A stretch of 11,543 bases of DNA. Source: an uncultured Clostridium sp. Its GTDB lineage: Bacteria; Bacillota; Clostridia; TANB77; CAG-508. Shown here piece after piece: positions 324 through 8,504 of the stretch; position 1 is the first letter of the stretch; the number at the start of each line of letters is the position of its first letter. The notes under the pieces are model-generated. The model worked only from the letters and a program-made list of their open reading frames with translations, had not been told where the DNA came from and searched no databases. Both the position numbers and the translations under genes were made by a program. Where the stretch lies: positions 1 to 11,543 of the forward strand of contig CALYZR010000006.1 in assembly GCA_945610215.1 (NCBI GenBank). Reading direction: 5' to 3'.

Positions 324-701
324 TTAATTTTCATCATTAGGTTTTATATCTTTCATTATATCTTTTAAAATTGTATCAATTTTCTCTCCATATTCCATTG
401 AATCATCTAGTTCAAAAACTAATTCTGGCGTTACTCTTAAGTTTATGCTTTGTGCAATTCTGCTTCTTATAAATCCGGAAGAAGATTTTAAACCAGCTAA
501 TGTTTGTTTAACATTTCTAGAGTTTAATATACTAACTTTAACTTTTGCATATCTTAAATCTGGGGAAATTTTTACAGAGGTTACACTAACCATTCCAGTT
601 ACATTTGAATTTGTAACTTCATAATTAATTATATTGCTTATTTCCCTTTTTAATTCTTCATTTATTCTATTAAGTCTGTTATTTCCATTTTCCTTTTTCA
701 T
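324..701 (-). CDS. rbfA: 30S ribosome-binding factor A
   Basis: The 125-residue product matches RbfA in length and sequence. It begins with a helix ending in LKREISNII, then has SPDLRYAKVKVS (about residues 46-57) and the C-terminal signature RSRIAQSINLRVTPEL (about 79-94) followed by FELDDS, all within a single KH-type fold. RbfA binds the 30S subunit, helps mature the 5' end of 16S rRNA and is linked to cold adaptation. AAAAGGAG lies 5 nt before the ATG at 701. The gene is 235 nt downstream of infB, an unusually wide gap for this operon, and a palindromic element fills much of it. nrnA follows after about 106 nt. Confidence 0.96.
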   Translation of the reverse strand: MKKENGNNRLNRINEELKREISNIINYEVTNSNVTGMVSVTSVKISPDLRYAKVKVSILNSRNVKQTLAGLKSSSGFIRSRIAQSINLRVTPELVFELDDSMEYGEKIDTILKDIMKDIKPNDEN

Positions 702-821
702 TATTTCTCCTTTTGGAACGTGTCCTTACAGTTCGTTAAAACGAATCACAATTATTTAACAAATTAATTTATTAAAATCACACTTAGTAAACGAAGCAAA
801 TTAGGTATTATGCTAGTTTAT

Positions 822-945
822 AAAAATTAATCAAAAGCGAGTATTGCTAGGCAGACAAGCTAAAAAACCGGAAACGTACAAAGGTACGTTGAGGATTTTT
901 TATGCGCAGTCTAACAACGCAAGACGAAGCTTTTCATTAATTTTT
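822..945 (-). repeat. 124-nt imperfect palindrome between infB and rbfA, overlapping the infB stop codon
   Basis: The two halves pair over about 44 bp. The outer arms 822-831 and 936-945 are perfect 10-bp complements. After a C/C mismatch, 833-838 pairs with 929-934; 841-847 pairs with 919-925 with one mismatch; 853-856 pairs with 909-912; 859-860 pairs with 904-905; 861-867 pairs with 896-902 (seven A/T pairs); 868-869 pairs with 893-894; and 873-879 pairs with 884-890 (AACGTAC/GTACGTT) around a 4-nt loop at 880-883. The outer arm contains the last two codons and stop of infB. It lies in the mRNA as a long broken hairpin ending in a short U run. It could be a processing site, an attenuator, a small MITE-like insertion or a structured RNA; the sequence alone does not decide. 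Confidence 0.75.
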
Positions 946-3747
946 AACTTGTTCCATTATATATGCCTCTATTATGTCTCCTTCTTTAATATCATTAAAG
1001 TTTTCTATCTGAATTCCACATTCAAATCCTTTTGCAACTTCTTTTGCATCATCTTTCATTCTCTTTAATGAAATTAGTTTACCGTCATGTATTACAACAT
1101 TATCTCTTAAAACTCTTACCCCTGCATTTCTTGCAACTTTTCCATTTGTTACATAACATCCTGCAATAGTTCCAACATCAGAAATTTTAAATGTTTGTCT
1201 AACTTCTGCATTTCCTATTACAACTTCTTTAAATACTGGATCTAGCATTCCTTTCATAGCTGCTTCTACATCTTCAATTGCATTGTATATTACAGAATAT
1301 GTCTTTATTTCTACATTTTCTTTGTCTGCCATATCTTTTGCTATTGGCTGTGGTCTTACATTAAATCCTATAATTATTGCATTTGATACATTTGCAAGTG
1401 TAACATCACTTTCTGTTATTGCACCAACGTTTGCATGTATTACTTTAACTTTTACTTCATCATTTGACAATTTTTCTAATGATTGTTTTACAGCTTCTAC
1501 AGAACCTTGAACATCTGCTTTTACTATAATATTTAATTGTTTTAGGTTTCCTTTTTCTATTTGGCTAAATAAATCATCTAATGTAACTCTTGATGATGCT
1601 TTTAATGCTTTATCTCTTGCTTGACGTTTTCTTCTTTCCATTAAATGTTTTGCAGTTTTTTCGTCTTTAACCTCATAGAAAGTATCTCCTGCTTCTGGAA
1701 CATCTGCTAAGCCTGTTATTTCTACTGGTGTTGATGGTCCGGCTTTTTTAACTTTATGACCTTTATCATCTGTCATTGTTCTTATTCTACCTATAACTGA
1801 ACCTACTAAAATAGTATCACCTATGTCTAATGTACCACGTTGTACAAGCATTGTTGCAACTGGTCCTTTTGCTTTATCTAGCTTTGCTTCTATTACTACA
1901 CCTTTTGCTTGTTTATTTGGATTTGATTTTAATTCTTTCATATCAGCAACTAAAAGTACCATTTCTAGTAAATTATCTATATTTATTTTTTTCTTTGCAG
2001 AGATTGGAACAAAGATTGTATCTCCACCCCATTCTTCTGATACTAAACCATATTCTGCTAATTCCTGTTTTACTTTTTCTGGATTTGCTCCTTCAACATC
2101 TATCTTGTTTATTGCTACAATTATTGGAATTCCAGCAGCTTTTGCATGGTCTATTGCTTCAATTGTTTGTGGCATTACACCATCATTTGCAGCAACTACT
2201 AATATTGCTATATCTGTTATTTGTGCACCTCTTGCTCTCATTGCAGTAAATGCTTCGTGTCCTGGTGTATCTAAAAATGTAATTTCTCTACCATTTACAT
2301 CTACTTTATATGCACCAATTGCTTGTGTAATTCCTCCTGCTTCGCCTTCTATTACATTTGTTGATCTTACTGCATCTAGTAACGAAGTTTTACCATGGTC
2401 TACGTGTCCCATAACAACAATTACTGGTGGTCTTGGTTTTAAATCTTCTTCTTTATCTTCGCTATCATCAAATAGGATTTCTTCGTCTGTAACAACTTCT
2501 TTTTTATGAGCTGTTACTCCAAATTCTCCTGCTATCAAAAATGCTGTATCAAAGTCAATTTCGTTATTTATTGTTGCCATAATTCCATATCCTAGTAATT
2601 TTTTTATAATTTCACCACTAGTCTTTTTAAGTTCTGCACTTAAATCTTTTACTGTTATTGTTTCTGGTATTGTTATATCTGTTAAATCAAATATTTTTTG
2701 TTTTACTCTGTTTTCCCCTTGTTGTAGCTTTTTCTTGCCTCTTCTTCCTCTTGTTGTTGTTAAATCATAATAATCAAGCATAGAACCTTCATCAAACATA
2801 TTTGATAATTTATTTTCTTGTTTTAAGTCTTTTAATTTATGACTACTTATTTCTTCAAAATCATTTCTTCTTGACTTAGAAGATTTTTTATTTGTTTTTT
2901 CTTCATATCTATTACTTTTTTGTTTATCTATTGCTTTATTAGCATATTCTCTAACATTTTCTTTTTCTACTACGTCAGAAGCCATGATATTTTTTATGTT
3001 TTTCTCTATTCCTCTTTCGTCTAATGGTCTTCTTCCTCCAAAATTTCCTTGGTTTCTGTTATTATTAAAAGGTCTTTGTCCATCCCTATTAAATGGTCTA
3101 TTGTTTTGTCCATCTCTACTAAAAGGTCTTTGTCCATTTTCTCTATTAAATGGTCTTTGATTATCTCTATTAAAATCTCTGTTATTGTTGAAAGTTCGTT
3201 GTTGTATTGGTCTTTGATTTGTTCTTTCGCTTTGAGATAGCTCCTTATTTGTTTTTTCTACTTTTACTTCTTCTTTTTTTGCAGGTGATGTAATCTCTTC
3301 TTTTTTCTCTGTTTTTTCTACTATTGGTTTTTCAGGTTCTTTTGTTTTACTAGGCTCTTCTTTTTTTCCAAATAATTCACTTACAGTAAGAGGTTTTGTC
3401 GGTTTATTTCTATAGACAATATTATAATCTGTTTTTCTTTGTCTTTCTATAAAGCCAACATCTCTATCCCTTTTTGTCTGTTCTTTTTTTGTTTCCTCTT
3501 TTTTTGCCATATCAGAATCAGTCATAATTACTTCTCTTCTAATTATAACTGGATTATCTCTTTTTTCTTTTGCTTCTTTTTTTGTATTATTATTTGAAAA
3601 TTTTGCTTCTATCTTTTTTGCATCATTTTCATCAACACTGCTCATATGTGTTTTTACATCTAATCCTAATTCTTGTGCTTTTTCTAGTACTTCTTTACTA
3701 TTAACACCCAATTTTTTTGCTATTTCATGTATTTTTATTTTACCCAA
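937..3747 (-). CDS. infB: Translation initiation factor IF-2
   Basis: The GTPase IF2 delivers fMet-tRNA to the 30S subunit and promotes subunit joining. I place the start at TTG 3747 (product 936 aa), since GGGGGTG lies 6 nt before it and the protein then opens [14 protein letters not shown], the usual IF2N beginning; the ATG at 3771 would add eight residues and lacks a comparable site. Order: IF2N domain (about 1-52), a long charged linker with Arg/Pro/Phe/Asn/Asp/Gln repeats (about 192-227), a second IF2N-like domain (about 362-411), the G domain with P-loop GHVDHGKTS near residue 443, DTPGHEAF and NKID, then domains II-IV up to the C-terminus. The linker is long and low in complexity, but the GTPase core is intact. 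The stop codon lies in the arm of the downstream palindrome. Confidence 0.97.
3067..3171 (-). repeat. Degenerate tandem repeat coding the [12 protein letters not shown] tract of IF2
   Basis: Four in-frame units of 24, 30, 27 and 24 nt (3067-3090, 3091-3120, 3121-3147, 3148-3171) each begin with a form of AAAAGGTCT on the plus strand. They encode variants of N-R-D/E-G-Q-R-P-F. All unit lengths are multiples of three, so copy-number changes would keep infB in frame. The tract lies in the disordered linker before the second IF2N-like domain. Confidence 0.8.
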
Positions 3748-3788
3748 TAGTATCACCCCCATAAATTTCATTAATGCTTAAATTGTTT

Positions 3789-5850: not shown

Positions 5851-6504
5851 ATGAATCAAATATTATATACTGGTATTAATAATGAAAAAAGTAATTTTAA
5901 AAAAAAATCTAAATCTTTTAAATTTGTATTATGCATTTCTTTATTATTGTTTGTATCTACTATTTCTTATTTTTCTGTCTATTTGTATAATATAAAAAAA
6001 GAGGAAAAATTTGCCTCAACTCTAATTAATTCTTTTAACATAGATAGTTTGTATTCAAATAAAGAAAATTATACTGTTGTAAAGTTAAATAATTCAACTA
6101 AAGCAAAAGTAATTGGAATTATTAAAATTAATACGATAGGAATTGAATATCCTATACTTTCAGAAACCACTAATGAATTACTGAAAATTGCTCCTTGCAA
6201 ATTCTTTGGTTCAGAACCTAATAAGGTCGGAAATCTTTGCATTGCTGGACACAATTTTAATGATGAACGTTTCTTTAGTAAACTCTCCTCATTAAAAATT
6301 GGAGATGTTATAGAAATATATGCACCAGCAAATGTATGCGTATACTATGAAGTTTATGATATGTATGAAATTGAAAAAAATGATATGAATTGCACATCTC
6401 AAGAAACAAATGGTAAGAAAGAAATTACTTTAATTACTTGTAATAATATAAACAAAAAAAGGCTTATAGTAAAAGCCCAAGAAATAAAGCAAAACGCACA
6501 TTAG
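5851..6504 (+). CDS. Membrane-anchored sortase (cysteine transpeptidase)
   Basis: The 217-residue protein has a Lys-rich cytoplasmic N-terminus, one membrane segment (about 25-48) and an extracellular sortase fold. The catalytic triad is visible: His134 in AGHNF, Cys197 in TLITC (the TLxTC motif) and Arg204 in NKKRLIV. YPILSETTNELL and the GDVIEIYA strand also fit the family. Sortases cut a C-terminal sorting signal and join the protein to the cell wall or a pilus; the class cannot be fixed from this sequence, though it looks more like the class D/E group than A or B. No Shine-Dalgarno sequence precedes the ATG, and a stop three codons upstream rules out a longer form. A TATAAA at 5835-5840 would give a nearly leaderless mRNA (low certainty). 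It faces the Asn-rich secreted protein at 6549-6929, a likely substrate. Confidence 0.92.
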   Translation: MNQILYTGINNEKSNFKKKSKSFKFVLCISLLLFVSTISYFSVYLYNIKKEEKFASTLINSFNIDSLYSNKENYTVVKLNNSTKAKVIGIIKINTIGIEYPILSETTNELLKIAPCKFFGSEPNKVGNLCIAGHNFNDERFFSKLSSLKIGDVIEIYAPANVCVYYEVYDMYEIEKNDMNCTSQETNGKKEITLITCNNINKKRLIVKAQEIKQNAH

Positions 6505-6548: not shown

Positions 6549-6929
6549 TTATACATTATAATCTCTTATTTTCTTATATGCATATATTGCTGAAATTCCA
6601 CATACAGCTATTATAAATACTATTGAATAATCAACACCAGCATCTGCATGTTCTGCTGCATTTGATGTACTTGCATTATTATTTGCTTTTAAGTTTGTGT
6701 TGTTTACATTTGAATTATTTACATTAGTATTTACATTAGTATTTGCATTTACATTAGCATTTACATTTTCATTTCTTGTTGGTATATTTTGAACATCATT
6801 ATTTGCATTGCTATTTGCTAAAGTATTAAGTAAAGAACTTGCATCTGATGCGAATACATTTGTTGTTAGTGCTAAAGCTAAAACTGTAACAGCTAATAAA
6901 CATATTAATATTTCTTTTGTTTTTGACAT
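6549..6929 (-). CDS. Secreted Asn-rich surface protein with sortase-type C-terminus
   Basis: This 126-residue protein has a signal peptide (residues 1-27, hydrophobic core LICLLAVTVLALAL, likely cut after VFA), an Asn/Val/Ala/Thr-rich middle (about 40-90) with repeated NVNANVNANTNVNTNV, and a C-terminal module: AEHADAGVDYS, a hydrophobic stretch (103-117) and a basic tail with AYKKIRDYN. That order of short motif ending in G, membrane segment and positive tail is a cell-wall sorting signal, but the motif reads HADAG rather than LPxTG. AAAGGAG lies 9 nt before the ATG and a strong promoter lies at 6985-7013, so it is an independent unit. The convergent sortase is the obvious candidate enzyme (inference). 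It has no recognised functional domain; the middle looks like a flexible stalk. Confidence 0.85.
   Translation of the reverse strand: MSKTKEILICLLAVTVLALALTTNVFASDASSLLNTLANSNANNDVQNIPTRNENVNANVNANTNVNTNVNNSNVNNTNLKANNNASTSNAAEHADAGVDYSIVFIIAVCGISAIYAYKKIRDYNV
6718..6765 (-). repeat. 12-nt tandem repeats encoding the Asn-rich stalk
   Basis: Two exact copies of TTTACATTAGTA (6718-6729, 6730-6741) are followed by two variant 12-mers (6742-6753, 6754-6765), and looser copies extend on both sides. Each 12-mer codes four residues of the N-V-N-A/T pattern, so copy changes would alter stalk length without breaking the frame. Confidence 0.75.
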
Positions 6930-8368: not shown

Positions 8369-8381
8369 CAATAAAAGGAGT

Positions 8382-8427
8382 GTATATTAGTTCTGATAAT
8401 TTAGGACTAATATACTCTTCTTTTTTT
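8382..8427. terminator. Bidirectional terminator between the small ORF and the sigH/tRNA unit
   Basis: GTATATTAGT (8382-8391) pairs with ACTAATATAC (8406-8415), and the stem extends inward by TCT/AGG (one G-U) to 13 bp with an 8-nt loop. On the plus strand CTTC and seven Ts (8421-8427) follow; on the minus strand CTCC and four Ts follow. It can end the small ORF transcript and the tRNA-Thr transcript, which converge here. The plus-strand T run stops one base before the tRNA CCA end. Confidence 0.85.
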
Positions 8428-8428
8428 A

Positions 8429-8504
8429 TGGAGCTTCCAGCCGGAATTGAACCGGCGACCTCTTGCTTACCACGCAAGTGCTCTACCTACTGAGCTATAG
8501 AAGC
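8429..8504 (-). tRNA. tRNA-Thr (anticodon GGT)
   Basis: A complete 76-nt cloverleaf lies on the minus strand. The acceptor stem GCTTCTA pairs with TGGAAGC (one G-U), the D-arm has AGCTC and GAGC with loop AGTAGGTA, the anticodon stem CTTGC/GCAAG encloses loop GTGGTAA with GGT at 8471-8469, and the T-arm is CCGGTTCAATTCCGG. The discriminator is U and CCA is encoded (8431-8429). GGT reads the Thr codons ACC and ACU. It starts 14 nt after the sigH stop with no promoter in between, so it is probably released from the sigH transcript by RNase P, and it ends at the terminator at 8382-8427. Confidence 0.97.

Follow-up and report, generated by a model that had tools for sequence, protein, structure and literature searches.

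A long imperfect palindrome located between the infB and rbfA genes of an uncultured Clostridium sp. is probably one copy of a non-autonomous, REP/ERIC-like mobile palindromic repeat of Clostridia. This reading is based on the dispersal of the element, on the near-identical copies found in Eubacterium plexicaudatum and on the occurrence of both filled and empty sites. The DNA analysed, hereafter the window, comprises 11,543 nucleotides (contig CALYZR010000006.1) and is part of an assembly (GCA_945610215.1) of 838,662 bases in 161 contigs, 61.8% complete. The names infB and rbfA, assumed throughout, come from the original prediction and from the protein sequences. The relevant features of the window are the following:

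821..946, plus strand (the motif strand, antisense to infB and rbfA): palindromic element, subtype A, from the fold and the covariance-model match
868..896, plus strand: tip, CC-GGA-AA-CGTAC, 4-nt loop, GTACG-TT-GA-GG-AT, from the tip-pattern match
844..853, plus strand: 5′ side of the middle node, TTGC-TA-G-GC, opposite about 913-922, from the fold and from inspection of copies of subtypes A and C by eye
936..946, plus strand: outer arm over the infB stop codon and preceding codons, pairing with 821-831, from the fold and ORF coordinates
785..816, plus strand: arm left over from an older subtype-C copy, matching locus L142 at 94% in 32 nt, E 2.6e-7 (best E with 100 shuffled queries, 2.7e-4)
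937..3771, minus strand: infB, upstream operon gene, from the ORF
324..701, minus strand: rbfA, downstream operon gene, from the ORF, with homologues in 17 of 17 same-genus genomes

The palindrome lies in the 235-nt gap separating the infB stop codon from the rbfA start. Folding of positions 812-955 yielded −41.4 kcal/mol, compared to −23.7 (sd 3.2) in 200 dinucleotide shuffles, none of which was as stable (z −5.59). The predicted fold agrees with what the original prediction had described at this place. It contains 46 pairs, G-U included, within 821-946 (about 44 bp of complementarity had been claimed) and starts from a perfect basal helix of 11 bp, 821-831 with 936-946, where perfect ends of 10 bp had been proposed. 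A C832/C935 mismatch directly above this helix, internal loops half-way up the hairpin and a tip stem of 7 bp (873-879/884-890) closed by a 4-nt loop (880-883) correspond to the irregularities and tip anticipated, and the infB stop codon (937-939, minus strand) does fall in the outer arm. Only the reference to G/C-rich arms was loosely worded, the model-matched element being 35% G+C. A scan of the window against Rfam up to E 1 returned a tRNA and a sub-threshold match overlapping that tRNA, with none at the palindrome; six loci gave 0 matches, and a copy from E. plexicaudatum gave a single match at chance level (17 bits vs a threshold of 249). A known Rfam RNA family was rejected as the identity of the element, since it had no match at family threshold in the window, the six loci or the E. 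plexicaudatum copy. Elsewhere in the window, at 8370-8427 and 8432-8504, a 25-nt inverted repeat with an 8-nt spacer adjoins a minus-strand tRNA gene. By eye, a sortase-like ORF (5851-6504, plus strand) stands beside an ORF (6549-6929, minus strand) encoding a secreted protein rich in Asn and bearing a membrane anchor at its C-terminus.

The element is repeated in its own genome, where further copies follow an ABC-transporter ATPase gene and separate dnaK from dnaJ, and an inverted pair lies upstream of adk (all gene names outside the window are presumptive, being assigned from protein sequence). A tip pattern, CCGGARRCGTAC-N3-6-GTACGTTGAGGAT, was present in 16 of 56 relatives, with 0 matches to the reversed control pattern. 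A covariance model of 131 positions (R1), built on the motif strand from 29 copies, matched the window at 820-948 on the plus strand with 117.8 bits. At E 0.01 the model found copies in 35 of the 56 relatives and 18 of 30 genera, with a maximum of 24 copies per genome; at E 1e-4 and with strict filters, it found them in 14 genomes of a sample of 391 from the class. A wider tip pattern identified at least 113 stretches in named genome contigs, and the matches listed (80 loci) were by title nearly all from Clostridia and included the isolate E. plexicaudatum ASF492 and an Oscillospiraceae bin. On a contig labelled Nitrospira (L206, 5438-5562), a G+C-rich version (57%) with re-paired arms was observed, reflecting transfer or misbinning. 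For the counts below, 82 of 113 R1 matches were used, the other 31 being opposite-strand matches at places already counted, together with 102 of 108 wider-pattern locus matches, after six short, cut, misfolded or overlapping-neighbour rows had been dropped by hand. Removal of matches shorter than 110 nt and of identical copies left 171 distinct copies. The tip pattern occurred in 0 viral contigs, and a link to phages was discarded. In the open-licence literature, as judged by titles and the beginnings of abstracts, no description of the repeat family was found, and the tip strings occurred in five papers, none with a title on bacterial repeats. Thus the mobile-type repeat originally proposed has dispersed copies both in its own genome and in relatives, and the suggested search and covariance model turned up the other copies and the compensatory changes whose joint absence would have spoken against it.

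In E. plexicaudatum, five full copies are 99-100% identical and have unrelated flanks. A search with the whole element revealed in addition two divergent or partial copies and no longer partner with the same ends. All five full copies have CTAG at both ends, and such palindromic ends would mask a target duplication. One divergent copy (L323) matches the query over its inner 90 nt only; its outer arms are quite different in sequence, yet complementary. More generally, comparison of copies showed the ends of the element to differ between them. In a genome of another family (G040), several copies (L091, L092, L094 and L095) have at least 30 nt of conserved sequence in common to the left of the hairpin, which suggests that a longer unit may move there.

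By eye, each folded copy is a single long hairpin interrupted by irregular nodes: a C/C or G/A mismatch near the base, a middle node consisting of one G-C pair between two internal loops (absent in subtype B) and a tip of the form CC-GGA-RR-stem / stem-UU-GA-GG (altered in subtype C), whose conservation is partly a matter of ascertainment, copies having been gathered by tip patterns. The T-run beside the tip is, also by eye, not kept in every copy, and an intrinsic terminator was rejected. Double compensatory changes affected 20 of the 31 predicted pairs in 29 copies, and 28 of 31 pairs had changed on both sides in 104 distinct copies, bearing out the covariation that had been claimed for the arms. 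Over the 104 rows, 93.6% of cells pair, as opposed to 36-45% when slid, and the covariation score is 0.604 vs 0.199 in shuffled and 0.08-0.11 in slid controls; these figures come from an alignment fitted to the model and lean towards structure. Pairing is kept by compensatory change, and the palindrome is more than a product of chance.

The fold is conserved on the motif strand, antisense to the genes, an assignment made because G-U pairs exceed A-C oppositions and because the motif strand folds lower. The 31 pairs, read on the motif strand with R1, which was built on that strand and so favours G-U to some extent, comprised 2710 Watson-Crick, 252 G-U and 40 A-C cells and 163 other mismatches. 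Two pairs at the tip take the G-U form more often than any other (in 73 and 74 of the 102 rows that have letters there); with these left out, G-U and A-C numbered 105 vs 40 cells. A strand-neutral fold of 97 copies, in which G-T and A-C were scored alike, gave 253 G-T against 108 A-C stacked cells, and the motif strand folded lower than its complement in 92 of these copies (mean −48.3 vs −38.4 kcal/mol). The original prediction had left the choice between selection for RNA structure and a mobile repeat. A mobile-type repeat with a kept fold is the part that holds, whereas a structured operon transcript is not the most economical interpretation, because the fold is conserved on the strand antisense to infB-rbfA.

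At the infB-rbfA locus, the element is found in 12 of 17 same-genus genomes (by eye, subtype A in five, one of them the window, subtype B in two and subtype C in five); four of the parsed gaps, measuring 9, 17, 52 and 70 nt, are empty and one matchless locus was unparsed. The combination of filled loci, three subtypes and empty gaps weakens the earlier proposal of an integral operon element. At nusG-rplK, 9 of 14 parsed genomes have the element; of those without it, three show a 12-nt gap with the TAG stop overlapping TAGGAGG and two a gap of 125-127 nt. The rplK-rplA gap holds it in 7 of 14 genomes, the other seven gaps measuring 47-166 nt. Comparison of filled with empty sites gave no proof of a target-site duplication. 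Half-elements broken at the hairpin tip lie beside intact copies at L139, L140, L144 and L145; by eye, they look as if the tip had been cut and one arm lost. Among copies having an ortholog, the nearest relative was the orthologous copy in 28 of 50 cases, indicating much vertical inheritance, which tells against a mobile repeat; vertical descent and replacement both occur, and inheritance by locus and by genome is mixed. The infB-rbfA gap and those flanking rplK (L134-L149, L325-L340) were also seen by eye to hold REP-like hairpins of the GTAGGGGCG type and another repeat, of the GTAGGGGACATAGC / GGGACATACC type; given several repeat families in the same gaps, these intervals look like layered landing pads.

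The infB coding sequence ends in K-Q-stop in 12 of 16 parsed genomes, the window being among the 16. Those ending in K-N-stop are the window, two further genomes with subtype A and one whose gap is empty. In another species, the 16-nt arm AAAATTAATGAAAAGC is also found after the stop codon of a gene other than infB. Judging from these sequences, the element likely supplied the last infB codon and the stop in the window. The suggestion that it gave infB a new end is made plausible by the K-N vs K-Q ends and by the recurrence of AAAATTAATGAAAAGC; on the other side, the recommended comparison of infB C-termini found the empty-gap genomes not to be uniform, one of them also having K-N-stop.

The 171 distinct copies include 132 lying between co-directional genes with the motif antisense and 14 in the same setting with the motif sense; the remainder fall in two mixed classes (9 and 6) or at contig or locus edges (10), and some of the "+-" context rows reflect spurious ORFs on the wrong strand. 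The stop codon of the co-oriented upstream gene is no more than 25 nt from the element in 129 of 144 cases, and 10 of 11 inspected copies end beside an apparent ribosome-binding site of the next gene. Recurring host gaps are what we take, from the protein sequences, to be rpsG-fusA, nusG-rplK, rplK-rplA, rplJ-rplL, dnaK-dnaJ, grpE-dnaK and purH-purD. Seven of the 14 sense copies belong to a divergent pair, in which they come second, and 9 of 10 mixed-orientation pairs less than 600 nt apart are divergent. Compact operons together with purifying selection most simply account for the position next to stop codons. The 132:14 orientation bias, for its part, is not explained by random insertion and tolerance; it may stem from the target or from selection against the opposite orientation, which would place the stronger hairpin in the mRNA. 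Pairing around the stop was scored in 108 copies with a clear basal register, from 133 lying near the stop of a frame of 70 codons. The entire stop codon is paired in 33 of the 108, no CDS base beside the stop in 71, and at least four contiguous CDS bases in 11; eight of the 33 copies with the whole stop codon paired have at least four contiguous CDS bases paired (null fraction 0.000). A count with unlimited extension was uninformative (16.1 observed vs 15.8 null paired positions). Copying of the arms from host coding ends was rejected as a general rule, the stricter count showing only a minority of such cases.

If the palindrome is indeed a mobile repeat, a putative trans-acting enzyme would recognise the folded single motif strand as ssDNA or RNA; it is the strand-specific wobble and the conserved nodes that suggest recognition of a folded single strand. 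The GGA/GA tip loop, the tandem G-U pairs and the middle node would be the determinants of recognition, self-complementarity being the sole requirement in the basal helix. Copies would survive directly after stops, the harmless site being presumably limited to the interval between stop codon and ribosome-binding site because compact-operon gaps can be 10-20 nt, and an arm of the element could provide the stop of the host gene. In the infB-rbfA mRNA, the copy would form a long hairpin, and any effect on expression would be a by-product varying with the species. The search for the mobilising enzyme yielded no longer partner in E. plexicaudatum and no linkage to the 38 RAYT-like loci. A bolder and rather doubtful proposal is that the motif strand is the active form of a new selfish element, a hairpin of folded ssDNA or RNA whose tip (GGA/GA loop, tandem G-U) serves for recognition and which some putative machinery inserts one-way at the stops of transcribed operons; its basal arms could be rebuilt using sequence present at the site.

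Several other explanations were considered. The hairpin could be a cis-acting element of the operon mRNA which, lying after the stop, protects the upstream message from nucleases or exposes it to them, or attenuates the downstream genes. The presence of 132 of 171 copies in co-directional operon gaps agrees with such a role, and the sense strand still folds (mean −38.4 kcal/mol); ERIC sequences, according to excerpts of PMC2229807, act on operon mRNA in an orientation-dependent manner. We nonetheless regard this explanation as unlikely: wobble pairs of the antisense strand become A-C mismatches in the mRNA, although selection could arguably be weakening the hairpin there, and presence varies within the genus (nusG-rplK 9/14, rplK-rplA 7/14, infB-rbfA 12/17). 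It is more doubtful that the repeat is a giant REP owing its mobility to the RAYT-like Y1 transposases encoded in these genomes, which act on folded ssDNA. With RAYT-like ORFs set at 230 aa or more, copies occur in 24 of 26 genomes having such an ORF vs 11 of 30 without (Fisher p 1.9e-5) and, outside the genus, in 12 of 14 vs 7 of 25 (Fisher p 7.7e-4), kinship being ignored in both tests. REPs, too, lie less than 20 bp from upstream 3′ ends (PMC3733652, in part). However, 0 of 38 RAYT-like loci had a copy at E <0.1 within the stretch searched, several have other palindromes alongside (by eye), and genomes G006 (24 copies) and G033 (11 copies) are without a RAYT-like ORF of that size; the link was not adopted, strong co-occurrence being accompanied by no physical linkage. 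Of two IS200-type loci, one had a copy. As to the 38 loci themselves (L162-L199), genes for Y1 transposases of ~250 aa are common in the relatives, and several are flanked on one or both sides by GGGGAC-type palindromes, probably the repeats proper to these genes.

Palindrome correction by template switching might keep the arms of a passive repeat complementary without selection. Whole outer arms do differ while complementarity stays (L323 and the three subtypes), and the final codons of the host gene recur in some arms (11 of 108 copies; 8 of 33 with the whole stop paired). This process would nevertheless not preserve a shared set of mismatches and loops, nor give an excess of G-U over A-C on a single strand; it leaves spread and orientation without explanation, and 71 of 108 copies have no paired CDS base beside the stop. 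We consider it very improbable. Hardly any credence can be given to a gene for a small antisense RNA on the motif strand: the strand-specific G-U pairs and conserved tip do resemble RNA, but no conserved columns were present upstream, and promoter-like pairs (two mismatches at most) numbered 13 in 168 flanks vs 6 in 168 shuffled ones, and 9 vs 2 on the other side, at most a weak and unspecific excess. With no clear signal in the 168 flanks, a promoter proper to the motif strand was rejected. A reverse transcriptase (PF00078) was likewise discarded, copies occurring in 19 of 32 genomes with it and in 16 of 24 without (p 0.78).

Taken as a mobile repeat, the family would add many structured elements to mostly uncultured gut bacteria, with copies sitting in core ribosomal, translation and chaperone operons. 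The usual logic of MITEs is reversed, the tip being conserved and the ends variable. The strand-specific fold and orientation bias offer a handle on a putative enzyme reading folded single strands, and the genus provides natural comparisons of operon expression with and without a copy at the same site.

In integrons, the active strand of attC folds as a single strand, is antisense to the gene and comes after a stop codon, much as here; the Clostridia repeat differs in occurring as single copies in housekeeping operons. Like MITEs and ERIC-like elements, which measure about 100-300 bp, it is small (131 model positions), self-complementary and dispersed in many intergenic copies with no transposase coding capacity; conserved terminal inverted repeats common with an autonomous element were not found, the ends varying and E. 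plexicaudatum having no longer partner. According to excerpts of PMC3733652, fewer than 20 bp separate a REP from the 3′ end of the preceding ORF, whose TAG stop it often supplies, and its distance to the next ORF varies. Location near the upstream 3′ end, the possible supply of a stop and the inverted pairs recall REPs and REPINs, but REPs measure 20-40 bp and bear a GTAG or CGTC tag, against about 125 nt here with no such tag at the ends by eye. Since both the tag and RAYT flanking (0 of 38 RAYT-like loci at E <0.1) are lacking, the repeat is not filed as a REP. NEMIS and Correia elements are likewise small mobile hairpins in transcribed gaps, NEMIS being RNase III substrates with terminal inverted repeats of about 24 bp, a feature not seen here (PMC2229807, excerpts). 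Excerpts of PMC3049150 describe pneumococcal BOX, RUP and SPRITE as small, interspersed, folded Gram-positive repeats affecting co-transcribed genes, a likeness tempered by the fact that RUP shares its ends with an IS630 element (PMC2229807, in part) and no partner was found for the Clostridia repeat. ERIC (also IRU or RU-1), as portrayed in parts of PMC2229807 and PMC10969869, is an enterobacterial imperfect palindrome of about 127 bp, intercistronic and transcribed with its neighbours, whose orientation matters for the mRNA. Similar length, imperfect palindromy and intercistronic place unite the two, set side by side by description rather than by sequence; ERIC belongs to another phylum and has a TA duplication, whereas the Clostridia repeat has a conserved tip, variable ends and its fold on the antisense strand. 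By analogy, then, the Clostridia repeat resembles ERIC, REP and NEMIS in size, dispersal and place.
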